A program made the translations under genes and the position numbers. Shown piece by piece: positions 8,028 through 44,379 of a stretch of 44,379 bases of DNA. This DNA comes from Verrucomicrobiota bacterium (GTDB taxonomy: Bacteria > Verrucomicrobiota > Verrucomicrobiia > Limisphaerales > UBA8199): NCBI GenBank assembly GCA_029974925.1, contig JARKQH010000165.1, forward strand, positions 1 to 44,379, given 5' to 3'. The notes under the pieces are model-generated. The model was not told the DNA's origin. It ran no database searches and worked only from the letters and a program-made list of their open reading frames with translations. Position 1 is the first letter of the stretch, and each line of letters starts with the position of its first letter.

Positions 8028-8102
<75 letters not shown>

Positions 8103-8120: not shown

Positions 8121-8195
8121 TGGCGACCCTAAGGGGACTCGAACCCCTGCTACCGCCGTGAAAGGGCGGTGTCCTAACCGCTAGACGATAGGGTC
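8121..8195 (-). tRNA. tRNA-Glu (TTC anticodon)
   Basis: On the minus strand: acceptor GACCCTA/TAGGGTC, D-arm with GTCTAGCGGTTAGGAC, anticodon stem CCGCC/GGCGG around the loop CTTTCAC (anticodon TTC), T-arm AGGGG/CCCCT, discriminator G and encoded CCA. It matches the bacterial tRNA-Glu pattern closely. Confidence 0.96.
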
Positions 8196-14706: not shown

Positions 14707-17665
14707 GACCCCCGAAACCAGCCCCGAGGCCCAATACCCTTTCGGCTCGGCCGGGCGCTTTGTGCCGGCTTTTCTTCCCTGGCTTGTGGGGGGGATCGCG
14801 CTTTTGGTTTACGGGCTGACTCTCAGTCCTTGGGTGACCGTCAACAGCCTCGGTCTGGTGAGCCGGGCGTCGGGCTTGACTTGGCAGCCCGAATTGGGCG
14901 GCCCCTTGTATTGGCTCGTCACCTATCCGGTCCGCTGGCTGCCGCTCAAAGCCATTCCCTTGGCCCTCAACCTGTTCTCGGCTCTCTGCGCTGCGTTGAC
15001 CCTGGCCCTGCTCGCCCGGTCGGTGGCCCTCCTGCCTCATGACCGCACCGAAGAGCAGCGGATTCGCGAGAAGAGCACGTTTTCGACCCTGAGCATCCGA
15101 AGCGCTTGGTTGCCGCCCGTTTTGGCGGCTTTGGTCTGCGGCCTCCAGCTTACCTTCTGGGAGAACGCCACGGCGGCCTCGCAGGACATGTTCGATTTGC
15201 TCTTGTTCGCGTATCTCATCCGCTGTCTGCTCGAGTTCCGAATTGATGGCCGGCAGTCCTGGCTCTCGCGCGCCGCATTTCTTTATGCCGCAGCCATGAC
15301 CAATAATTGGGCCATGCTCGGGTTCTTCCCGCTCTTCCTCATCGCCGTGGCCTGGGTCAAGGGGCTTAGCTTTTTCAACCTCCGGTTTTTGCTGCGGATG
15401 TTCCTGTGGGGCCTGGCTGGGCTGTGTTTCTACTTTGTGATGCCCCTGGTCACCGCGCTTGCCGAGCATGCGCAATTCACGTTCTGGCAGGCGCTTCGTC
15501 TCGAGCTGGCCCAGCAAAAAAGCTTCCTGTTCGGCACGCTCAACAAGCAAATGCTTTTCAATCCCCAGATGCCGCTGTGGGTGCTGGGGCTGCCCTCGCT
15601 GTTGCCGCTGCTGATGATTGCGATCCGCTGGCCATCCTATTTCGGCGACCCCAGCCGTTTGGGCATCGCCATTTCCACGTTCGTCTTTCATTTGTTTTAC
15701 GGCGTGCTGCTGCTTTATGGCGTCTGGATTGCCCTCGACCCGCTGTTAAGCCCCCGGACCTACGGCATCGCCGGCCTGCCCCTGTATTACCTCGGGGCAC
15801 TCTGCATCGGCTACTTCACCGGCTACTTCCTCCTGGTTTTTGGCACCAAACCGTTCGGCCGGCCGCGGCCGGTGGCCTGGTTTGTGCCTTGGATCAGGAA
15901 GGTGGTATTTGCGGCAACCTGGGCTTTGGCCATTGCCGCTCCCGTCGCGCTGGTCTATCTCAACCTGCCGCAGATACGCATCACCAATGGGCCGATGCTG
16001 GCAGACTATACCGAGTCCATGATTCGTGCCCTGCCCTCCCAGCCGGCGATTGTGCTGAGTGACGATGTGTGGAAGCCCTGGCTCGTGGAATCCCAAATGG
16101 CTCGGACCGGCAAGCAGAAGACTCATTTGCTGCTCCACGTCTCAAGCCTGGGCCCGATGTTCCCCGAGTCGCTCCGCATACCGGCCTACAACCGATTTCT
16201 AAGGCGATACTATGGTGAACGCTGGCCCTTGGACCCCGACAAGGACAAGGTTGATCTGTATGATCAGGTTACTCTCACGCGGCTGATGGCCGCCCTGGCC
16301 AAAACCAACCAGATTTGCTATCTGAATCCGAGCTTCGGCTATTACTTCGAGCTCCTTTACGCGGAACCCCACGGAATGGTTCAATACCTCAAGCTCTGCC
16401 CCACCAACACCCTGCTGGTGCCGGCCCTTTCGGAATCCGTTCTGCAATCCAACGCCGCTTTTTGGAGCCAGGCGGAAGCCACCCTCCTGCCCCCCGTTTT
16501 CAAAGCCATCGCCCCCCCCAAAGCCACCAACGGATTGGGGGCGGCTCTGGCGAGAATCCGCGCAACTCCCAAACCCAATCAAGGAGCGCGGTGGCTGGCC
16601 AACGATTACTCTCGCAACCTGACCGCGTGGGGTGTTGCGCTCCAGCGGCATGGAAGGCTTGTCGAAGCTCAACGGGCCTTCCAGCTCGCCAGCAAGCTCA
16701 ACCCCGACAACGTCGTGGCCGAGGTCAATCTTCAGTGCAACCAAAACCTGCAAGCGGGGCGCAAGAGCACCGTTCGCCCCTCCAGGTCCATCGAAGATCA
16801 GTTCAGGAAGTATCGCAGTTGGGAGGGCGTCATGCTGCCCAATGGTCCGTTTGACGAGCCGAACATCTGTTTCCAACAGGGGTACGCCTTTTACAAAGGC
16901 TCGAATTTCCGCCAGGCGGCCCAGCAATTCACCCGCGTGCGCCAACTCGACCCGGACAATTTCCCGGCCAGTTTCGCGCTGGCTGAAATCTTTCTCCTGA
17001 GCGGCATGGCGGATGATGCGCTCAAGGAACTGGAGCCGCTTCACAAACGGCCGGAAATTTTCCAAGGCACGAATTCACTTCGCGCGCAACTCTTGTTCCT
17101 GGACATGGCGGCCCATCTCACCAAGGAGGAGCCGGCGACGGCGGAAGCCAAAGCCAAAGCGGCGCTCAAAGCCGCGCCCGACAATGATGATCTGCTTCAG
17201 GCTGCGAGCCGGGTTTACCTGACCTTTCGCCGCTACACCAACGCACTCGAGTACATTGAGCAGCGCCTGCGGCTCAAGCCCGATTCGCCAGGTTTGCTGC
17301 TCGATAAAGGGTATGCCTATCTTCAGCTCAACCAGCTTGCGCATGCCATCCCCCCGTTGAGCCGGGCGCTGGCGCTTGAGACCAATCCCAATTCGGCGCT
17401 CCACCTGACGGCGCTTTTCAACCGCGCCATCGCCTACTTGCGCAGCGAGCAATACGACCTGGCGCGCCGCGACTACGAAGCCTTGCAGAAGCAGTTCCCC
17501 ACCGACCCCAATGTTCATTACGGCCTGGGTGAAGTCGCCTACCATCGCAAGGATTACCGGACCGCGGTCAACCATTACGAAATCTACCTGGCCAATAGCG
17601 CGACCAACACACCGGATGCAACCAACATCCTGGCGCGCTTGAACGAAATTCGAAATTCGCGCTGA
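14693..17665 (+). CDS. DUF2723 polytopic membrane protein with TPR repeats
   Basis: 990 residues. The first half has about 10-11 transmembrane helices (from about residue 20 to 430) resembling DUF2723, a family related to GT-C protein O-glycosyltransferases. The second half has tetratricopeptide repeats (from about 620 to 985), for example around RAFQLASKLNPDN, QLDPDNFPASFALAEI and HYGLGEVAYHRKDY. The first periplasmic loop of GT-C enzymes normally carries an acidic pair (D-x-G-E) and an HPPG motif; here the same place reads VNSLGLV and LGGPLY, so catalysis by that mechanism is doubtful. The next gene is a glycosyltransferase 7 bp away, which suggests a shared surface-glycan or glycoprotein role. 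Precise function is unknown. Confidence 0.8.
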   Translation: MTNDKTPETSPEAQYPFGSAGRFVPAFLPWLVGGIALLVYGLTLSPWVTVNSLGLVSRASGLTWQPELGGPLYWLVTYPVRWLPLKAIPLALNLFSALCAALTLALLARSVALLPHDRTEEQRIREKSTFSTLSIRSAWLPPVLAALVCGLQLTFWENATAASQDMFDLLLFAYLIRCLLEFRIDGRQSWLSRAAFLYAAAMTNNWAMLGFFPLFLIAVAWVKGLSFFNLRFLLRMFLWGLAGLCFYFVMPLVTALAEHAQFTFWQALRLELAQQKSFLFGTLNKQMLFNPQMPLWVLGLPSLLPLLMIAIRWPSYFGDPSRLGIAISTFVFHLFYGVLLLYGVWIALDPLLSPRTYGIAGLPLYYLGALCIGYFTGYFLLVFGTKPFGRPRPVAWFVPWIRKVVFAATWALAIAAPVALVYLNLPQIRITNGPMLADYTESMIRALPSQPAIVLSDDVWKPWLVESQMARTGKQKTHLLLHVSSLGPMFPESLRIPAYNRFLRRYYGERWPLDPDKDKVDLYDQVTLTRLMAALAKTNQICYLNPSFGYYFELLYAEPHGMVQYLKLCPTNTLLVPALSESVLQSNAAFWSQAEATLLPPVFKAIAPPKATNGLGAALARIRATPKPNQGARWLANDYSRNLTAWGVALQRHGRLVEAQRAFQLASKLNPDNVVAEVNLQCNQNLQAGRKSTVRPSRSIEDQFRKYRSWEGVMLPNGPFDEPNICFQQGYAFYKGSNFRQAAQQFTRVRQLDPDNFPASFALAEIFLLSGMADDALKELEPLHKRPEIFQGTNSLRAQLLFLDMAAHLTKEEPATAEAKAKAALKAAPDNDDLLQAASRVYLTFRRYTNALEYIEQRLRLKPDSPGLLLDKGYAYLQLNQLAHAIPPLSRALALETNPNSALHLTALFNRAIAYLRSEQYDLARRDYEALQKQFPTDPNVHYGLGEVAYHRKDYRTAVNHYEIYLANSATNTPDATNILARLNEIRNSR

Positions 17666-17672
17666 CCGTCCC

Positions 17673-18848
17673 ATGCGCGTCGTCCATGTCATTACCCGCC
17701 TGATCGTGGGCGGGGCGCAGGAGAATACTGTGGACTCCGTCCTCGGCCTGCGGCGCAGACCCGGACTCGAGCCGCACCTGATTTCCGGCCCTTGCAGCCC
17801 GCTGGAGGGCTCGCTCGAATCCCGATTTGCAGACTGTCCGGAGTTGTTAACCCTCCTGCCCGATCTGGTCCGTCCCATCAACCCGTGGCGGGACTGGACG
17901 GCCTATCGCCGCCTGCTCGAGTGCTTTCGCCGTCAGCGGCCCGACATCGTCCACACTCACAGCGGCAAGGCCGGCATCCTCGGCCGCCTGGCCGCCGCTC
18001 GCGCCCGGGTTCCGCTCATTCTGCACACGGTCCACGGCCCCTCCTTCGGCCCTTTTCAAGGACCTGCCGCCAATTGGGCTTTTCGGGCCGCCGAACGGTT
18101 TGCAGCGAAGGTCACCACTCATTTTGTCGTCGTGGCCGATGCCATGCGCGACCAGTACCTGCAGGCGGGCATCGGTCGTCCGGAGCAATACACCAAAATT
18201 CTTAGCGGGTTTCCGCTCGAGCCGTTCCTCACTGCCGCCAACGACCCCGCCCTCCGCGCGCGGCTCGGCATCGCTGCCGAGGACATCGTCGTGGGCAAAA
18301 TCGCGCGCATCACCCGGCTCAAAGGCCACGAAGACCTTTTGGCGGTCGCGCCCGAGCTGCTTCGCGAAGTGCCCCGGCTCAAGTTCCTCCTGGTGGGAGA
18401 CGGGTCCTTGCGGCGCCGCGTCGAACGCCAGGTCCGCGACGCCGGGCTGCAGTCGCACTTCATCTTCGCCGGCCTGGTGGCCCCCGGCCAGGTGCCGCCG
18501 CTGGTAGGGATCATGGATCTGGTCGTACACCTGTCCCTGCGTGAGGGGTTGCCGCGTTCCCTGCCTCAAGCCCTGGCTGCCGGCCGGCCGGTCATCGCTT
18601 ACGACTGTGACGGCGCCCGGGAGGTCTGTCTGGACGATCAAACCGGCTTCCTTTTGCCCCCCCGCGATACCGCTGGCCTCCGCCTCCGCCTCCTGCAACT
18701 GGCCCGGAGTCCCGAGTTGCGCCAGCGTCTCGGTCACACCGGGCGGAATTTCGTCCGCGAGCGTTTCAGTCTCGATCGCATGGTGGATGATCTCTACGAG
18801 CTCTATCTTCGCCTGGCGCGACAGCGGCGGCACCCCCAGCCGGCCTGA
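17673..18848 (+). CDS. GT4-family glycosyltransferase
   Basis: 391 residues, GT-B fold. The N-terminal half opens with MRVVHVITRLIVGGAQENTV, the glycine-rich start of GT4 enzymes that transfer sugars from nucleotide donors. The C-terminal half has KIARITRLKGHEDLL, LVGDGSLRRRVERQV, the donor-site stretch LSLREGLPRSLPQALAAGRPVIAYDCDGAREV, and ends with a helix containing RFSLDRMVDDLYELY. No membrane segments, so it acts at the cytoplasmic face. It follows the DUF2723 gene by 7 bp. Likely builds an exopolysaccharide, lipid-linked glycan or glycoprotein glycan; donor and acceptor are not determinable. Confidence 0.9.
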   Translation: MRVVHVITRLIVGGAQENTVDSVLGLRRRPGLEPHLISGPCSPLEGSLESRFADCPELLTLLPDLVRPINPWRDWTAYRRLLECFRRQRPDIVHTHSGKAGILGRLAAARARVPLILHTVHGPSFGPFQGPAANWAFRAAERFAAKVTTHFVVVADAMRDQYLQAGIGRPEQYTKILSGFPLEPFLTAANDPALRARLGIAAEDIVVGKIARITRLKGHEDLLAVAPELLREVPRLKFLLVGDGSLRRRVERQVRDAGLQSHFIFAGLVAPGQVPPLVGIMDLVVHLSLREGLPRSLPQALAAGRPVIAYDCDGAREVCLDDQTGFLLPPRDTAGLRLRLLQLARSPELRQRLGHTGRNFVRERFSLDRMVDDLYELYLRLARQRRHPQPA

Positions 18849-18988
18849 AGCATGACTCTACAGCGGCATGCGGCCCATGGGAGACGGCTGCTCCAAAGCA
18901 ACGATTATCCCCGCGCGGGCTCCACTCGGTGTCTGGATCGGAGTTTGCGTTTGGAACCAACTTGTGTTTAATTAAGCACCGTTGTTTC

Positions 18989-19017
18989 TGGCACAATCGC
19001 CGGAACGGCTCTAAAAT
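18989..19017 (+). promoter_or_regulatory. Putative promoter of the YlbF-family gene
   Basis: TGGCAC (18989-18994), 17-bp spacer, TAAAAT (19012-19017), ending 9 bp before the ATG at 19027. The -10 is good and the -35 weak. The short leader leaves little room for a ribosome-binding site. Confidence 0.4.
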
Positions 19018-19026
19018 ACACTCAAT

Positions 19027-19437
19027 ATGATCATGACGGACGACACGCCGGTGCTGCGCAAAACGCGCGAGCTGTGCCAGACCATTTTGGAACAACCGGA
19101 TTTTCAATCCATTCGACAGCGCATTGAAACCTTTCTGGGCGACGAGCAGGCACGCGGCCAATACGACGAACTGGTGCAAAAGGGCCAGGCCCTCCAGCGT
19201 AAACAGCAGAACTCCATCCCGCTGACCGGCGAGGAGATAGCCGAATTCGAACGCGATCGCGATTCACTGCTCAACAATCCCGTCGCGCGGGGTTTCCTGG
19301 ATGCGCAGGAAGAGCTGCATGGTTTCAGACAGACCATCCAGCGTTACCTGAACAAGACCCTCGAACTGGGCCGGCTGCCGACGGCGGAGGACCTCGACGA
19401 AAGCTCCTGCGGCCACGGTTGCAGTTGCGACCATTGA
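19027..19437 (+). CDS. YlbF/YmcA-family protein with cysteine-rich tail
   Basis: 136 residues, mostly helical. The central part (LCQTILEQPDFQSIRQRIE, QYDELVQKGQALQRKQQ) matches the helical YlbF/YmcA family. In Bacillus the family members RicF and RicA join RicT in a complex that binds Fe-S clusters and aids RNA processing and sporulation or competence. The C-terminus ends in CGHGCSCDH, with C128, C132 and C134 plus two histidines as possible metal ligands. ATG 19033 is an alternative start six bases in. It stands alone with its own promoter and a downstream hairpin. Function in this lineage is unknown; a role in mRNA processing is inference. Confidence 0.8.
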   Translation: MIMTDDTPVLRKTRELCQTILEQPDFQSIRQRIETFLGDEQARGQYDELVQKGQALQRKQQNSIPLTGEEIAEFERDRDSLLNNPVARGFLDAQEELHGFRQTIQRYLNKTLELGRLPTAEDLDESSCGHGCSCDH

Positions 19438-19594: not shown

Positions 19595-19670
19595 GCCTCG
19601 GTAGCTCAATTGGCAGAGCAGTTGACTCTTAATCAATTGGTTCTAGGTTCAAGTCCTAGCCGGGGCACCA
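19595..19670 (+). tRNA. tRNA-Lys (CTT anticodon)
   Basis: Acceptor GCCTCGG/CCGGGGC with one G-T pair, D-arm GCTCAATTGGCAGAGC, anticodon loop CTCTTAA with anticodon CTT at 19628-19630, T-arm CTAGG/CCTAG around TTCAAGT, discriminator A, encoded CCA. The decayed apbE sequence begins about 100 bp downstream. Confidence 0.95.
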
Positions 19671-40091: not shown

Positions 40092-42692
40092 CTACGGTTT
40101 GCGCAGGCGGTAAAACCGGCGTTCTGCGGTGGCGGTTTCAGTTACTGAAAAGCGATTCCCATCCACCGTCACCGGCTGGGACACTGCGGTCCAAGTGCCT
40201 GTGAGGGAGTCGCTCCATTCCAACACGAATCCCTTGTCCGCGTTGGTCCAGTTCAGCATGGAAGCGGAACCCGAGCGGGTCAACGCCAGCGTCGGATCGG
40301 GAATGGCCAGGGCCAGGACCCCATTGTTGCCTTCCACCACATAAAGCCGGTCGCGGCCAAAAACCACCTGGCTGATGAAGTTGGCATTGGCCCGGGCGGC
40401 GGTTTGCCCCGCCGGCATGGGGAACCGCCCGATCAACCTCGGATTGGCCAGGTTGGCGATGTCATACACCACCAGCATGTCGGGCAGGACGACGGCGTTG
40501 GCGGGCTGCTGGATGGTGGCGTAGTCAATTCCCGCCAGAAGGTTGCGTGAAAAATCGAGGGTGACCGCACCGAGGTTGGTCGAGAAAGCCGCGTAGCTGG
40601 CCAGCTCGGTGGAGTAGCGGTATTCGAGGTCGTAGGCGCAATGCATAAGCGGGCCGCCTTTGCGTTTCTGCCAGTAGGTGTTGCCTTGTCCAAACTGCAG
40701 ACTGCGGCCCAGGCCGCTCGAGTAAGTGGCGACCTGCATAAAACCATTCGACTTGGAAATCCAGGTGTTCATGACCCCGTTGCTGGGCACCAGGATGGCC
40801 GCCCAAGTGCCGCCGTAGGGACTGCTCCCCGCAATGCCATCAATCAGAATCTCGGTGTTCGTTCCCGAGCCGCGGATGGCCAGCGTGTCGCCCCAGCGGC
40901 TGCTTTCTCCCGCGGGCTGGCCGCTGTAAATGAGTTCCGGCAGCGTGTTGGGGTCGGTATCGGCCCAGCGGTAAAGCCGGTAGGCCCCGTTGCCATCCGG
41001 CGCCGCGGCGTTGACCTCGTTGGCGGCATAAACCGCCCCGTCGTCCGCCACCGCGATGCAGAGCAGACTGATGCTGCCGGCCGCCGCGCCGCTGGGCAGA
41101 CCATTGGTGTTGAGCCGGTAGAGGTGGGCGCCGGTGGTGCCATCCAGCACGTTGATGGTCAGACCGGCAATGAGATTGGCGTTGGTGCGGGAGACAATCA
41201 GCACCTGATTGGACAGGGCGTTGTAGGCGATGCTGCGCTGGAAAGGCGTGCTGGAGGCGTCGGCGGTAATGTAAGGCCGGCTGCCCGGCGCCAGCGACCA
41301 GAGGGGTTCCAAAACCCCCGCCGCCTTCGGCATCACCAGCAATTGCACCTCCACACTCGTGGCCTGCCCCAAGGGATTGCTCGCCGTCAGACGGTAGAGT
41401 CCCTCATCCCACACGCTGACGTTGGTCAGCGTCAGCGTCCGACCGGTGCCCCAGGGAATGTTCTCGAAGGCGGTGTTTGAGATGCTGTGGCTGACCTGCC
41501 ACTGCAGGCTCAGGGGCTCGCTGCCCAGGACAAACGCCGAAAAGGTGATGTCCGACCCTTCGGGCCCGTAACGCAACACCGGGCCGCTGATGTAAGGCGG
41601 TTCAGCCGGGGCGGGCTCGGGCACCACGTCGAGCGCGAGGATGCCATTGTTGCAGTTGAGGACATAGACGACGTTGGTGGTGCCCGCGCGGCGGAAGATG
41701 ACCGAGCCCATGGCGTAGCGGTTCAAATTGTCCGTGGGAGTGTTGGTCTTGCTGAGGTAGGTGAGCTCTCCGGTCGTGTTGGTGAAGCTGAACAGCATGA
41801 CACTGTCCGGCGTGCTGACATCCACGCCGGCCAGCCAGTTGCTTTGGAGTTGCAGGCCGAACGGGCCGATGGTGGCGGGAAACTCGTTCAACTCATAAAG
41901 GCGCAAGGTCGTGGCGGTGCCGCTGTTGGTGTCAAAACTGAAGTATTGGAGGGGATTGTTGAGCGACTTGGCCCAAAAGGTATTGCCGGGGCCAAAGGCC
42001 GCGGCCCCAAAATACCCGATGCTGCCCGGCGGAGCATCAGTGTTCAACTGGCGGGCGGTGAAGTTGGTGCCGTCAGCGGTGGTCAGCAGCGATGCGACGG
42101 TGCCCGCCGAGGCGCTGGTCGAGCTGGTGGTCAACAGAATTTGCGTGTTGGTTCCTTTGCCCCGCACGTCGAAGGTGTAACCCCATTGGCTGCTCGTCGT
42201 CGGCGCCGGGTTCCCCGCAAAGGCAATGGTTGCGACCGCGCTCTCGTCGCTCCACCGGTACACTGTGGCGCGCGTGCCCGGCCAGCTCCCAAAATTCATG
42301 GCATAGATGACCCCATCCTCCGCCACCCCGATTTTCACCATGGAAATTGTGCCACCGTTGGTGATTCCGCTCAGGTCAAGGCCCGGGTAAATCTCCTGGC
42401 CAGTGTCCGCATCCAGAATGTGAATGCCCTCGGGCACCGAGACGGAATTGGTCCGGTGCGGAATGTACAAGTGATTGTTCAGCGGATTGTACGCCATGCC
42501 GCGCTGAAGGTTGTCCCCCGTCCCGGTGCCTGTCGTCGCGGTCAGCCAGTAGTAGTCGCCGGGCTGGATGCTCCCGTCGCCCCGGAAACCAAACCCCGGG
42601 TGAGGTTGGAAGCGAAGCGTCTGGGCGGCGTTTGCGGCCGCAACCGACAGAACGATGGCGGCGAGAATGAAGGAACGAAGACTGGCTTTCAT
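40092..42692 (-). CDS. Large secreted protein with duplicated propeller and Ig-like domain
   Basis: 866 residues, signal peptide at the N-terminus (MKASLRSFILAAIVLSVAAA). Two copies of a propeller-like unit stand on each side of a central Ig-like domain (about 365-455, SLQWQVSHSISNTAFENI...LYRLTASNPLGQAT). The copies can be matched by RGMAYNPLNNHLYIPHRTN and RSIAYNALSNQVLIVSRTN, and again by VAEDGVIYAMN and VADDGAVYAAN. The last about 55 residues (EWSDSLTGTWTAVSQPVTV, ending RRFYRLRKP) are the Verrucomicrobiota C-terminal module found at the end of many surface proteins. Similar units are annotated as DUF4623. No enzyme motif is seen; it is probably a surface or exported binding protein. Confidence 0.72.
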   Translation of the reverse strand: MKASLRSFILAAIVLSVAAANAAQTLRFQPHPGFGFRGDGSIQPGDYYWLTATTGTGTGDNLQRGMAYNPLNNHLYIPHRTNSVSVPEGIHILDADTGQEIYPGLDLSGITNGGTISMVKIGVAEDGVIYAMNFGSWPGTRATVYRWSDESAVATIAFAGNPAPTTSSQWGYTFDVRGKGTNTQILLTTSSTSASAGTVASLLTTADGTNFTARQLNTDAPPGSIGYFGAAAFGPGNTFWAKSLNNPLQYFSFDTNSGTATTLRLYELNEFPATIGPFGLQLQSNWLAGVDVSTPDSVMLFSFTNTTGELTYLSKTNTPTDNLNRYAMGSVIFRRAGTTNVVYVLNCNNGILALDVVPEPAPAEPPYISGPVLRYGPEGSDITFSAFVLGSEPLSLQWQVSHSISNTAFENIPWGTGRTLTLTNVSVWDEGLYRLTASNPLGQATSVEVQLLVMPKAAGVLEPLWSLAPGSRPYITADASSTPFQRSIAYNALSNQVLIVSRTNANLIAGLTINVLDGTTGAHLYRLNTNGLPSGAAAGSISLLCIAVADDGAVYAANEVNAAAPDGNGAYRLYRWADTDPNTLPELIYSGQPAGESSRWGDTLAIRGSGTNTEILIDGIAGSSPYGGTWAAILVPSNGVMNTWISKSNGFMQVATYSSGLGRSLQFGQGNTYWQKRKGGPLMHCAYDLEYRYSTELASYAAFSTNLGAVTLDFSRNLLAGIDYATIQQPANAVVLPDMLVVYDIANLANPRLIGRFPMPAGQTAARANANFISQVVFGRDRLYVVEGNNGVLALAIPDPTLALTRSGSASMLNWTNADKGFVLEWSDSLTGTWTAVSQPVTVDGNRFSVTETATAERRFYRLRKP

Positions 42693-43012
42693 GGAATTAT
42701 TGAATGGATAAAGGTCTGCTTTTTGAGGGGTGCTCCATTCCCAGGCGCTGCACGAGTGAGGGAAAATTGGTTTTCGGGCACACCAATCATGAGAGCATCT
42801 TGCGGGGATTCGAACGCCGGTGTCAAGGGGTGATTCTTTATCGGCGAACGCCGGTCTTCAAGGTTGAACCGCTTGGGGCTGCGTACGCCACGGCTGTGGA
42901 GGTTCCGTCGAATCAACCCCTGGATTTCCGACACCCTGGCCGCCCGCCCTGGTTATTGCCCCCCGCTGCTTTTTTGTGGAACCGCCAGCCCGGCTTGTAT
43001 TGAATCGGCGCC
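42693..43012. other. 320-bp divergent spacer
   Basis: Separates the minus-strand propeller gene from the plus-strand voltage-sensor/CorA gene, so it must contain both promoters. A weak candidate for the CorA gene is TTGTGG-17 bp-GTATTG (about 42974-43002). No gene, repeat or convincing operator is visible. Confidence 0.4.
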
Positions 43013-44379
43013 GTGAGTGCACAAGTTGACAAATGGGATGCGCGGGGAAGCTGGAACCCGGCGTTGCGATGGCTTTTGGGCGAGGTGTTCCTGGGCTTTC
43101 TGGCGATTGTGGCGGCGGCGCTGACATTGATCCCGCTGCTGTTTAACGTCTCCTCCCGGACCAATGAGCTGTTGGAGGCTGGCCAATGGCTGATCATCCT
43201 GCTGTTTGCGGTTGAGTACGGGATGGGGGCGGTCGAAGCGCCGTCGAAACGCCGATTTGTATTGAATCCCTGGCGCTTGGTGGACGCGGCCACGATTGTC
43301 ATCCCGCTGCTCACGCTTATCCCCGGTGCGTCCGGGCTATTGCGTTCGAGTCCGGTGCTGCGCCTTTTGCGCCTGGCCCGGGTCATCGCTCTGGGGGCGC
43401 GCGCGGGGAGCGTGATGACGCGCGGCGAGGAAACGGCCGCGGTGCAGGCTGCGGCGGCGCCCATGCAAATCAAGCTGTTGCCAGGCGGAGCGAATACGGA
43501 ACCCCGGCCGGCGAGCTGGGAGGAATTCGTGCGGTGGGCTCGGGACCCGGGTGAGCAGTGGTTCAGCCTGGCCAATGTGGGAGCCGACAACCTCGCGGCG
43601 GTGGCGGAGGTTACCGGAATTCCCAAGGATTTCATTTCCAAACATCTCCTGGCAACCGGGTATCCCCACGCCGAGATGACCGGACGCCACTTCTCCCTGT
43701 TTGTCTGGGTCCCGGAGCCCGGCTCTGGGGGCACCGTGACCCGCAACGGTTTGCTGTTGCTGGCCAGCGAACGGAGTGTGGTCACCTTCTGCCGCCGTCC
43801 CGCCAGCCTGATGGAGCAGGCGGCCCGAGCCGAGGGCAGCCAGCTCGGCGGCCTGCCGTTTCCGGTCCGGATCACGTGCCGATTCCTCCAGGCGGTTCTC
43901 GACACCAATGAAACGCTGGTGGCCCGTTTCGAGCGGGAGCTTTCCGAGCTGGAGGACCTGCCCGTGCGGGAGAGCCGGCCGCAATTTTTTGAACGCACCT
44001 TCCGGCTCAAGAAGGAGCTGTCTGCCGCGCAAACCGATTTGTGGCGGCTGCGCGGCGTCCTCAAGGAGCTGGCGGAGGGCAAAGTGCGCCTGCCGCGCAG
44101 CGGGTCGGCCGAACTGGCGTTTCTGCGCGAGCTGGCGGACAGCGCCGATTACCTGTATGAAACCGCGAGCAATCTGCGCGAAGGCGTTTTGTCGCTGATA
44201 GACCTGCACCTGAATGTCGTTTCGTTCGAAATGAACCGGGTGATGCGGGTGCTGGCCGTCCTGAGCGCGCTGGGGTTGATCCCCGCGATCGTCGGGGGGC
44301 TGCTCGGCATGAACCTGGTTGACAATCCCTGGCCGCTGACGCTCTCCCAGGTGGCGTTTTCGGTGTGCCTGGCCATGGT
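43013..44379 (+). CDS. Voltage-sensor-like domain fused to CorA Mg2+ channel (3' truncated by window)
   Basis: Open from GTG 43013 (in-frame stop at 43001) to the window edge, over 455 residues with no stop. Residues about 24-130 form four hydrophobic helices like S1-S4 of a voltage-gated channel: E69 in S2 (LLFAVEYG), the S3 motif NPWRLVDAATIV with D91, and an S4 helix with arginines R111, R117, R120, R123 and R130, three of them every third residue. No S5-S6 pore follows. Instead, residues about 165-400 resemble the CorA cytoplasmic alpha/beta and long-helix domain (FFERTFRLKKELSA, YLYETASNLREGVLSLIDLHLNVVSFEMN). The first CorA membrane helix ends in the GMN signature at 432-434. The second membrane helix is cut by the window end. 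CorA conducts Mg2+, Co2+ or Ni2+; coupling to voltage is inference. Confidence 0.8.
   Translation, partial: MSAQVDKWDARGSWNPALRWLLGEVFLGFLAIVAAALTLIPLLFNVSSRTNELLEAGQWLIILLFAVEYGMGAVEAPSKRRFVLNPWRLVDAATIVIPLLTLIPGASGLLRSSPVLRLLRLARVIALGARAGSVMTRGEETAAVQAAAAPMQIKLLPGGANTEPRPASWEEFVRWARDPGEQWFSLANVGADNLAAVAEVTGIPKDFISKHLLATGYPHAEMTGRHFSLFVWVPEPGSGGTVTRNGLLLLASERSVVTFCRRPASLMEQAARAEGSQLGGLPFPVRITCRFLQAVLDTNETLVARFERELSELEDLPVRESRPQFFERTFRLKKELSAAQTDLWRLRGVLKELAEGKVRLPRSGSAELAFLRELADSADYLYETASNLREGVLSLIDLHLNVVSFEMNRVMRVLAVLSALGLIPAIVGGLLGMNLVDNPWPLTLSQVAFSVCLAM

Follow-up and report, generated by a model that had tools for sequence, protein, structure and literature searches.

The 3' end of this stretch of Verrucomicrobiota DNA (44,379 nucleotides, referred to below as the window) raises the question of whether a voltage-sensor domain (VSD) of the ion-channel type is joined to a CorA-type channel in a single protein and, if so, what such a sensor would control.

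Reading frame and domain architecture

The coding sequence begins with a GTG codon, just downstream of an in-frame stop (43001-43003), and remains open to the end of the window. The contigs of the same genome were searched for its continuation, and the end of the contig C472 is identical to positions 44239-44379 of the window (end overlap of 141 bases). This contig supplies the rest of the frame, VICLYFFVVKGWLR followed by a stop (the last 14 codons and the stop are found on C472). The last helix (TM2) and the stop, which lie past position 44379, were thus obtained, and the complete protein, named here VSD-CorA, comprises 469 amino acids. An assembly chimera was ruled out, since the identical fusion architecture recurs in five further genomes (six in total).

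A single chain contains, in this order, an S1-S4 voltage-sensor domain, a short linker, a CorA body with the GMN motif and two C-terminal helices (Table 1). The Pfam profile Ion_trans (PF00520) matches residues 29-127 (E-value 1.4e-7; 31.5 bits for a curated cut-off of 25) and the profile CorA (PF01544) matches residues 182-453 (E-value 4.2e-34; 118.6 bits for a curated cut-off of 27). Both profiles were found in all five members of the family that were scanned with Pfam. A full-length model was obtained with AlphaFold2 from an alignment of five orthologues only (mean pLDDT 72) and compared with the PDB. Residues 146-455 superimpose on CorA with a Z-score of about 25, the match between the CorA part and TmCorA having a Z-score of 24-25 and a deviation of 2.8-3.0 Å over about 270 residues. 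Residues 23-132 superimpose on the voltage sensor of a Nav channel (8f0q) with a deviation of 2.0 Å over 97 residues (Z-score 10.7).

S4 ends near residue 130 and TM1 starts near residue 401. Hydropathy and the model detect no transmembrane helix between residues 131 and 401, which confirms, together with the presence of GMN in the sequence, that the protein has the filter motif of CorA and no S5-S6 pore, as the first-pass annotation had claimed. That annotation had also placed the CorA body from residue 160; the assignment to CorA holds and the boundary has to be moved, as the fold begins near residues 143-150, about 15-20 residues past S4. The topology would be consistent, with four helices bringing the chain back to the cytosolic side, which is the proper one for the CorA funnel. 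Because the profile, fold and homologue evidence agree, the architecture in two modules (a predicted voltage-sensor fold and a CorA pore, without S5-S6) is well supported.

Table 1. Positions in the window of the VSD-CorA gene and of the segments of its product.
Feature	Position	Strand	Basis
VSD-CorA coding sequence	43013..44379	+	frame analysis and overlap with contig C472
S1 helix, residues 24-43	43082..43141	+	model secondary structure; Pfam Ion_trans
S2 helix, residues 52-75; F65-x-x-E68 (codons at 43205 and 43214) identical in all six members	43166..43237	+	model; homologue alignment
S3 helix, residues 86-101, N85 just before; D91 (codon at 43283) identical in all six members	43268..43315	+	model; homologue alignment
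S4 helix, residues 109-130, with R111, R117, R120, R123 (codons at 43343, 43361, 43370, 43379) and R130	43337..43402	+	model; alignment; hhalign
S4-CorA linker, residues 132-168; lowest conservation of the protein (43% or less)	43406..43516	+	regional identity
CorA cytosolic domain, residues 169-400 (CorA fold match from near 143)	43517..44212	+	Pfam; fold; alignment
Pore helix TM1, residues 401-430, with N408, M411, L414 (TmCorA N288, M291, L294)	44213..44302	+	alignment
GMN selectivity-filter motif, residues 432-434	44306..44314	+	sequence; alignment
TM2 start, residue 444 onward; finished on C472 as ...CLAMVICLYFFVVKGWLR-stop	44342..44379	+	contig overlap

Distribution of the fusion and genomic context

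Searches at the levels of order, class and phylum recovered six members of the fusion family among roughly 1,100 genomes of Verrucomicrobiota. The five relatives of the window protein share its architecture and are designated G012 (Limisphaerales, PLZQ01; 65% identity), G265 (UBA1319; 48-50% identity, its gene being interrupted by a scaffold gap), G329 (49%), G445 (35%) and G641 (27%). In the G265 gene (L061/L037, DBTJ01000156), a run of N is bordered on both edges by GVILRE-GRRA, which looks like a scaffold gap artefact and not like an insertion. The family is rare and scattered across several families of Verrucomicrobiota. Further profile surveys of the phylum gave no additional member, no fusion was found in viral contigs, and the matches in plasmids were all plain CorA proteins. 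Exact-peptide scans of genome contigs recovered two members and missed three known ones, and consequently say little about other phyla.

Two sets of candidates were rejected. The long-frame CorA matches were checked by profile and none carries a VSD. Other VSD matches of the phylum (L038-L058 and L157-L162) resembled additional fusions by their frames of 390-460 amino acids; those that were read turned out to be Kv channels and have T-V-G-Y-G filters. In some of these Kv channels (L038, L039, L047, L048, L054-L058 and L157-L162), S5 is separated from the pore helix by an inserted hydrophilic stretch of some 90-100 residues and the C-terminus bears the motif CPTCG, while the genes L040, L046 and L049 contain a different insertion and two zinc-ribbon-like motifs.

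In the tree of the CorA domain, which samples a single phylum with E. coli CorA and TmCorA as references and carries a long-branch warning for G445 and G641, the six fusions lie on one side of a branch with support 100/99, apart from both references and from the plain CorA proteins of the phylum. A single fusion event followed by losses or by transfer would fit these sequences. At least one ordinary CorA is also encoded in five of the six genomes, so that the fusion is a specialised extra beside the ordinary CorA. In the genome of the window, the ordinary CorA is located on the contig C116. In the sixth genome, G641 (97% complete), the fusion (L064, contig C128; H117, R120 and P123) is the sole CorA-family protein found.

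The genes adjacent to the fusion vary between the loci examined and encode a beta-lactamase-type hydrolase, an acetate kinase, an HD domain, a POTRA domain, a squalene-hopene cyclase, periplasmic binding proteins or LuxR regulators. Because these neighbours differ, the gene context provides no functional hint. Upstream of the fusion gene, the window encodes a secreted-looking protein of 866 amino acids with an immunoglobulin-like domain (40092-42692, minus strand). On the contig C472 (L004), the region at about 14849-19125, near the end of the gene, encodes a tandem pair of periplasmic binding proteins and two response regulators of the LuxR type, with no obvious link to the gene. Rfam detected three tRNA genes in the window (8028-8099, plus strand; 8124-8195, minus strand; 19595-19667, plus strand) and no riboswitch, either of the M-box type or other.

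The S1-S4 domain

The first-pass annotation had read a voltage sensor from E68 in S2, N85-x5-D91 in S3 and R117, R120 and R123 in S4, and these residues are correct in the translation. The relationship with ion-channel voltage sensors was found by profile-profile comparison. A profile of the six orthologous N-termini was aligned by hhalign with one built from 43 Kv channels of related genomes, and residues 25-129 (S1-S4) were matched with a probability of 98.2% and an E-value of 6e-14, for probabilities of 3.7% with the reversed profile and 0.1% with CorA as controls. This alignment places F65, E68 and Y69 on the motif F-x-x-E-Y of the Kv S2 helix, D91 on the aspartate of S3, and R117, R120 and R123 within the arginine ladder of S4.

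The N-terminus was also modelled alone (pLDDT 67.6). All the listed fold matches of this model are voltage-sensor proteins, the isolated VSD of KvAP being the first and Ci-VSP being included, with Z-scores of about 10-11 that helical bundles can reach by chance; the E-values given by Foldseek are weak (best 0.017). The argument is consequently carried by the specificity of the match list and by the profile evidence, and not by the Z-scores alone. S4 is the least confident section of the VSD in the models (pLDDT near 50-63). From the profiles and the models, the N-terminal part is identified as a voltage-sensor domain of the ion-channel type.

In G012, G329, G445 and G641, the identity with the window protein is of 67%, 55%, 45% and 30%, respectively, in the VSD and of 63%, 44%, 27% and 24% in the CorA cytosolic domain. 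TM1 is the most conserved part (90%, 83%, 73% and 50%). Since the identity of the VSD across members at least equals that of the CorA cytosolic domain, the comparison indicates that the VSD is under constraint, at least as much as this domain.

The S1-S4 domain could nevertheless derive from a voltage-gated channel and serve as a membrane anchor, or as a module for assembly or for lipid or pH sensing, with the CorA pore being opened by other means and without voltage gating. We consider this rather unlikely. The poor conservation of the linker speaks for it, as does the retention of the domain in one of the six members despite the loss of two S4 arginines. However, among sequences of 24-56% identity, the residues of the gating-charge transfer centre (F65, E68 and D91), which a mere anchor would not need, are conserved in every member, and the full set R117, R120 and R123, located at every third residue, is kept in five. 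S4 itself is identical at 81%, 68%, 54% and 36% of positions in the same four relatives, above the mean of the domain. R120 and R130 are invariant in the six sequences whereas R111, R117 and R123 are each kept in five. The exception is the most distant member, G641, with V, H, R and P at positions 111, 117, 120 and 123; the arginines on which the first-pass annotation had staked its reading are thus maintained among the homologues with this single failure. Two observations count against voltage gating, namely that the regularly spaced charges of S4 are only three and that two of these three arginines are replaced in G641, where no second CorA was found.

It is highly improbable, in our view, that the voltage-sensor unit itself conducts protons as Hv1 does, thereby connecting the uptake of metal with proton leak or with the membrane potential. 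An aspartate in S1 is a criterion for Hv1, and the S1 helix of VSD-CorA (EVFLGFLAIVAAALTLIPLLF) contains none. The tryptophan of S4 has been called totally conserved in Hv1 (PMC10377628), and the segment RLLRLAR lacks this residue of the motif R-x-W-R. The likeness with Hv1 lies in the absence of S5-S6, since Hv1 is among the stand-alone VSDs without these helices (PMC10377628), and the candidate was rejected on the two residues.

The CorA body and its proposed control by voltage

In TmCorA, internal Mg2+ is proposed to be sensed at two sites located between subunits, M1 (D89 and D253) and M2 (E88, D175 and D253, with L12) (PMC10632456). The six fusions were aligned with 83 plain CorA proteins and TmCorA. 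In the plain CorA proteins, the residue of TmCorA is present at E88 in 79 sequences, at D89 in 82, at D175 in 80 and at D253 in 77. The corresponding residues of the window protein are S209, K210, Q294 and E373, and the six fusions display S/A/D/R/Q/E at E88, K/A/T/T/S/A at D89, Q/K/Q/K/K/E at D175 and E/D/R/V/L/H at D253. The four positions are all acidic in 75 of the 83 plain CorA proteins and in none of the fusions; the M1 pair is acidic in 77 of 83 and again in no fusion. An independent HMM alignment to TmCorA pairs the sensor positions identically. The first-pass annotation, which had kept gating by internal Mg2+ and added voltage "as well", is contradicted on this point: because the Mg2+-sensor residues are lost in all six members, voltage would replace Mg2+ control and not supplement it. 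This loss is not by itself a proof of another gate, since TmCorA proteins with a mutated M1 site are able to close (PMC8865849).

The pore displays another pattern. GMN, which sits between the two C-terminal transmembrane helices with a short outside loop, the equivalents of N288, M291 and L294, and an acid at D277 are retained in the six fusions. Further positions that are nearly invariant in plain CorA proteins are altered (T295 to A, P303 to I, F315, K98, and E320, which is missing), and none of the six fusions keeps T295 or the canonical residues surrounding the filter (Y311, F315 and E320). The fusion clade being divergent, its pore chemistry may differ too. The protein could thus be a transporter or channel for Zn2+, Co2+, Ni2+ or a monovalent ion, resembling ZntB or CmaX, with GMN kept and the filter entrance changed. 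We regard this as possible but doubtful; it would be compatible with the explanation that we prefer, as it may hold with or without voltage control. The changes around the filter favour it, together with the score of 58 bits against the NCBIfam CorA equivalog TIGR00383, below the cut-off of 200.75, and the presence of CmaX among the sequence matches, but the N288 ring, the hydrophobic gate and GMN are those of CorA, and TmCorA and MjCorA are the best matches of the CorA part by profile and by fold, above ZntB and CmaX. That the permeant ion is divalent, and Mg2+ in particular, is our guess.

We favour, as somewhat probable, the explanation that VSD-CorA is a cation channel of the CorA type whose gating by internal Mg2+ has been taken over by a voltage sensor. 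Each subunit would carry its N-terminal S1-S4 sensor, tied by the short linker to the cytosolic funnel, as indicated by the sequence and the fold models. If the protein is a pentamer as in CorA, five sensors would surround one pore. The membrane potential would shift R117, R120 and R123 past the charge-transfer centre (F65/E68/D91), and the S4 helix, continuing into the linker, would tug the funnel and open or close the TM1 pore, with N408, M411, L414 and GMN, all kept, as gate and filter. As the acidic sensor sites between subunits, whose proposed role in ordinary CorA is to close the channel, are lost in the six fusions, a feedback by voltage has most likely supplanted that by internal Mg2+. 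The depolarisation brought about by cation entry would close the channel, so that this entry would limit itself; the direction of this response is a guess. Of the first-pass interpretation, the architecture stands and the retained Mg2+ gating falls; voltage gating is what we infer from sequence and models, and Mg2+ is a putative substrate.

The modules are individually familiar. With TmCorA (PF01544), VSD-CorA shares the cytosolic alpha/beta funnel, the long TM1, GMN and TM2, and differs by its N-terminal S1-S4 domain and its altered sensor sites. CmaX and ZntB also have the fold of the CorA superfamily, with weaker matches than TmCorA, and lack the N-terminal voltage sensor. With KvAP, Kv4.2 and NavBac (PF00520), it shares the S1-S4 fold, F-x-x-E in S2, N-x5-D in S3 and the arginine spacing of S4; unlike them, it has no tetrameric S5-S6 pore, its sensor being joined to the pore of CorA. 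Ci-VSP likewise bears a pore-less VSD on another effector (the VSD-alone model matches 4g80 with a Z-score of 10.4 and 3.1 Å over 119 residues), but this effector is a phosphatase and not a CorA channel, and VSD-CorA is bacterial. In the sperm Na+/H+ exchanger SLC9C1 (sNHE), a voltage sensor also forms part of a transport protein that does not belong to the channel superfamily (PMC9180951), but its VSD follows the exchanger and precedes a cyclic-nucleotide domain, and this eukaryotic transporter is unrelated to CorA.

Voltage sensors on other effectors are thus represented in eukaryotes by Ci-VSP, Hv1 (PMC10377628) and the exchanger SLC9C1 (PMC9180951). For prokaryotes, a review of 2023 concluded from database searches that every VSD is accompanied by a K+, Na+ or Ca2+ pore domain of the S5-S6 type (PMC10377628). 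As predicted from its sequences and models, the VSD-CorA family is a counter-example to this rule. No description of a voltage sensor on a CorA protein was found in the open-licence literature, in agreement with the first-pass annotation, which knew of none; very likely, these proteins are present in the public databases with an annotation as CorA or as ion transporter. What is new is the combination of known modules and an apparent swap of the control input. Whether VSD-CorA is the first divalent-metal channel with a CorA pore to be gated by voltage, and its sensor the first one in prokaryotes to occur without an S5-S6 pore, with a chemical feedback (internal Mg2+) exchanged for an electrical one (membrane potential), is in our judgement evenly balanced.

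The set of six members, one of which has a degraded S4, constitutes a built-in comparison. If VSD-CorA is voltage-gated, a voltage sensor would be able to act on a channel whose fold and symmetry are unrelated, and the family would be a natural test case for the coupling of a sensor to its effector without an S4-S5 linker. The uptake of metal would then be tied to the membrane potential in a directly measurable manner.
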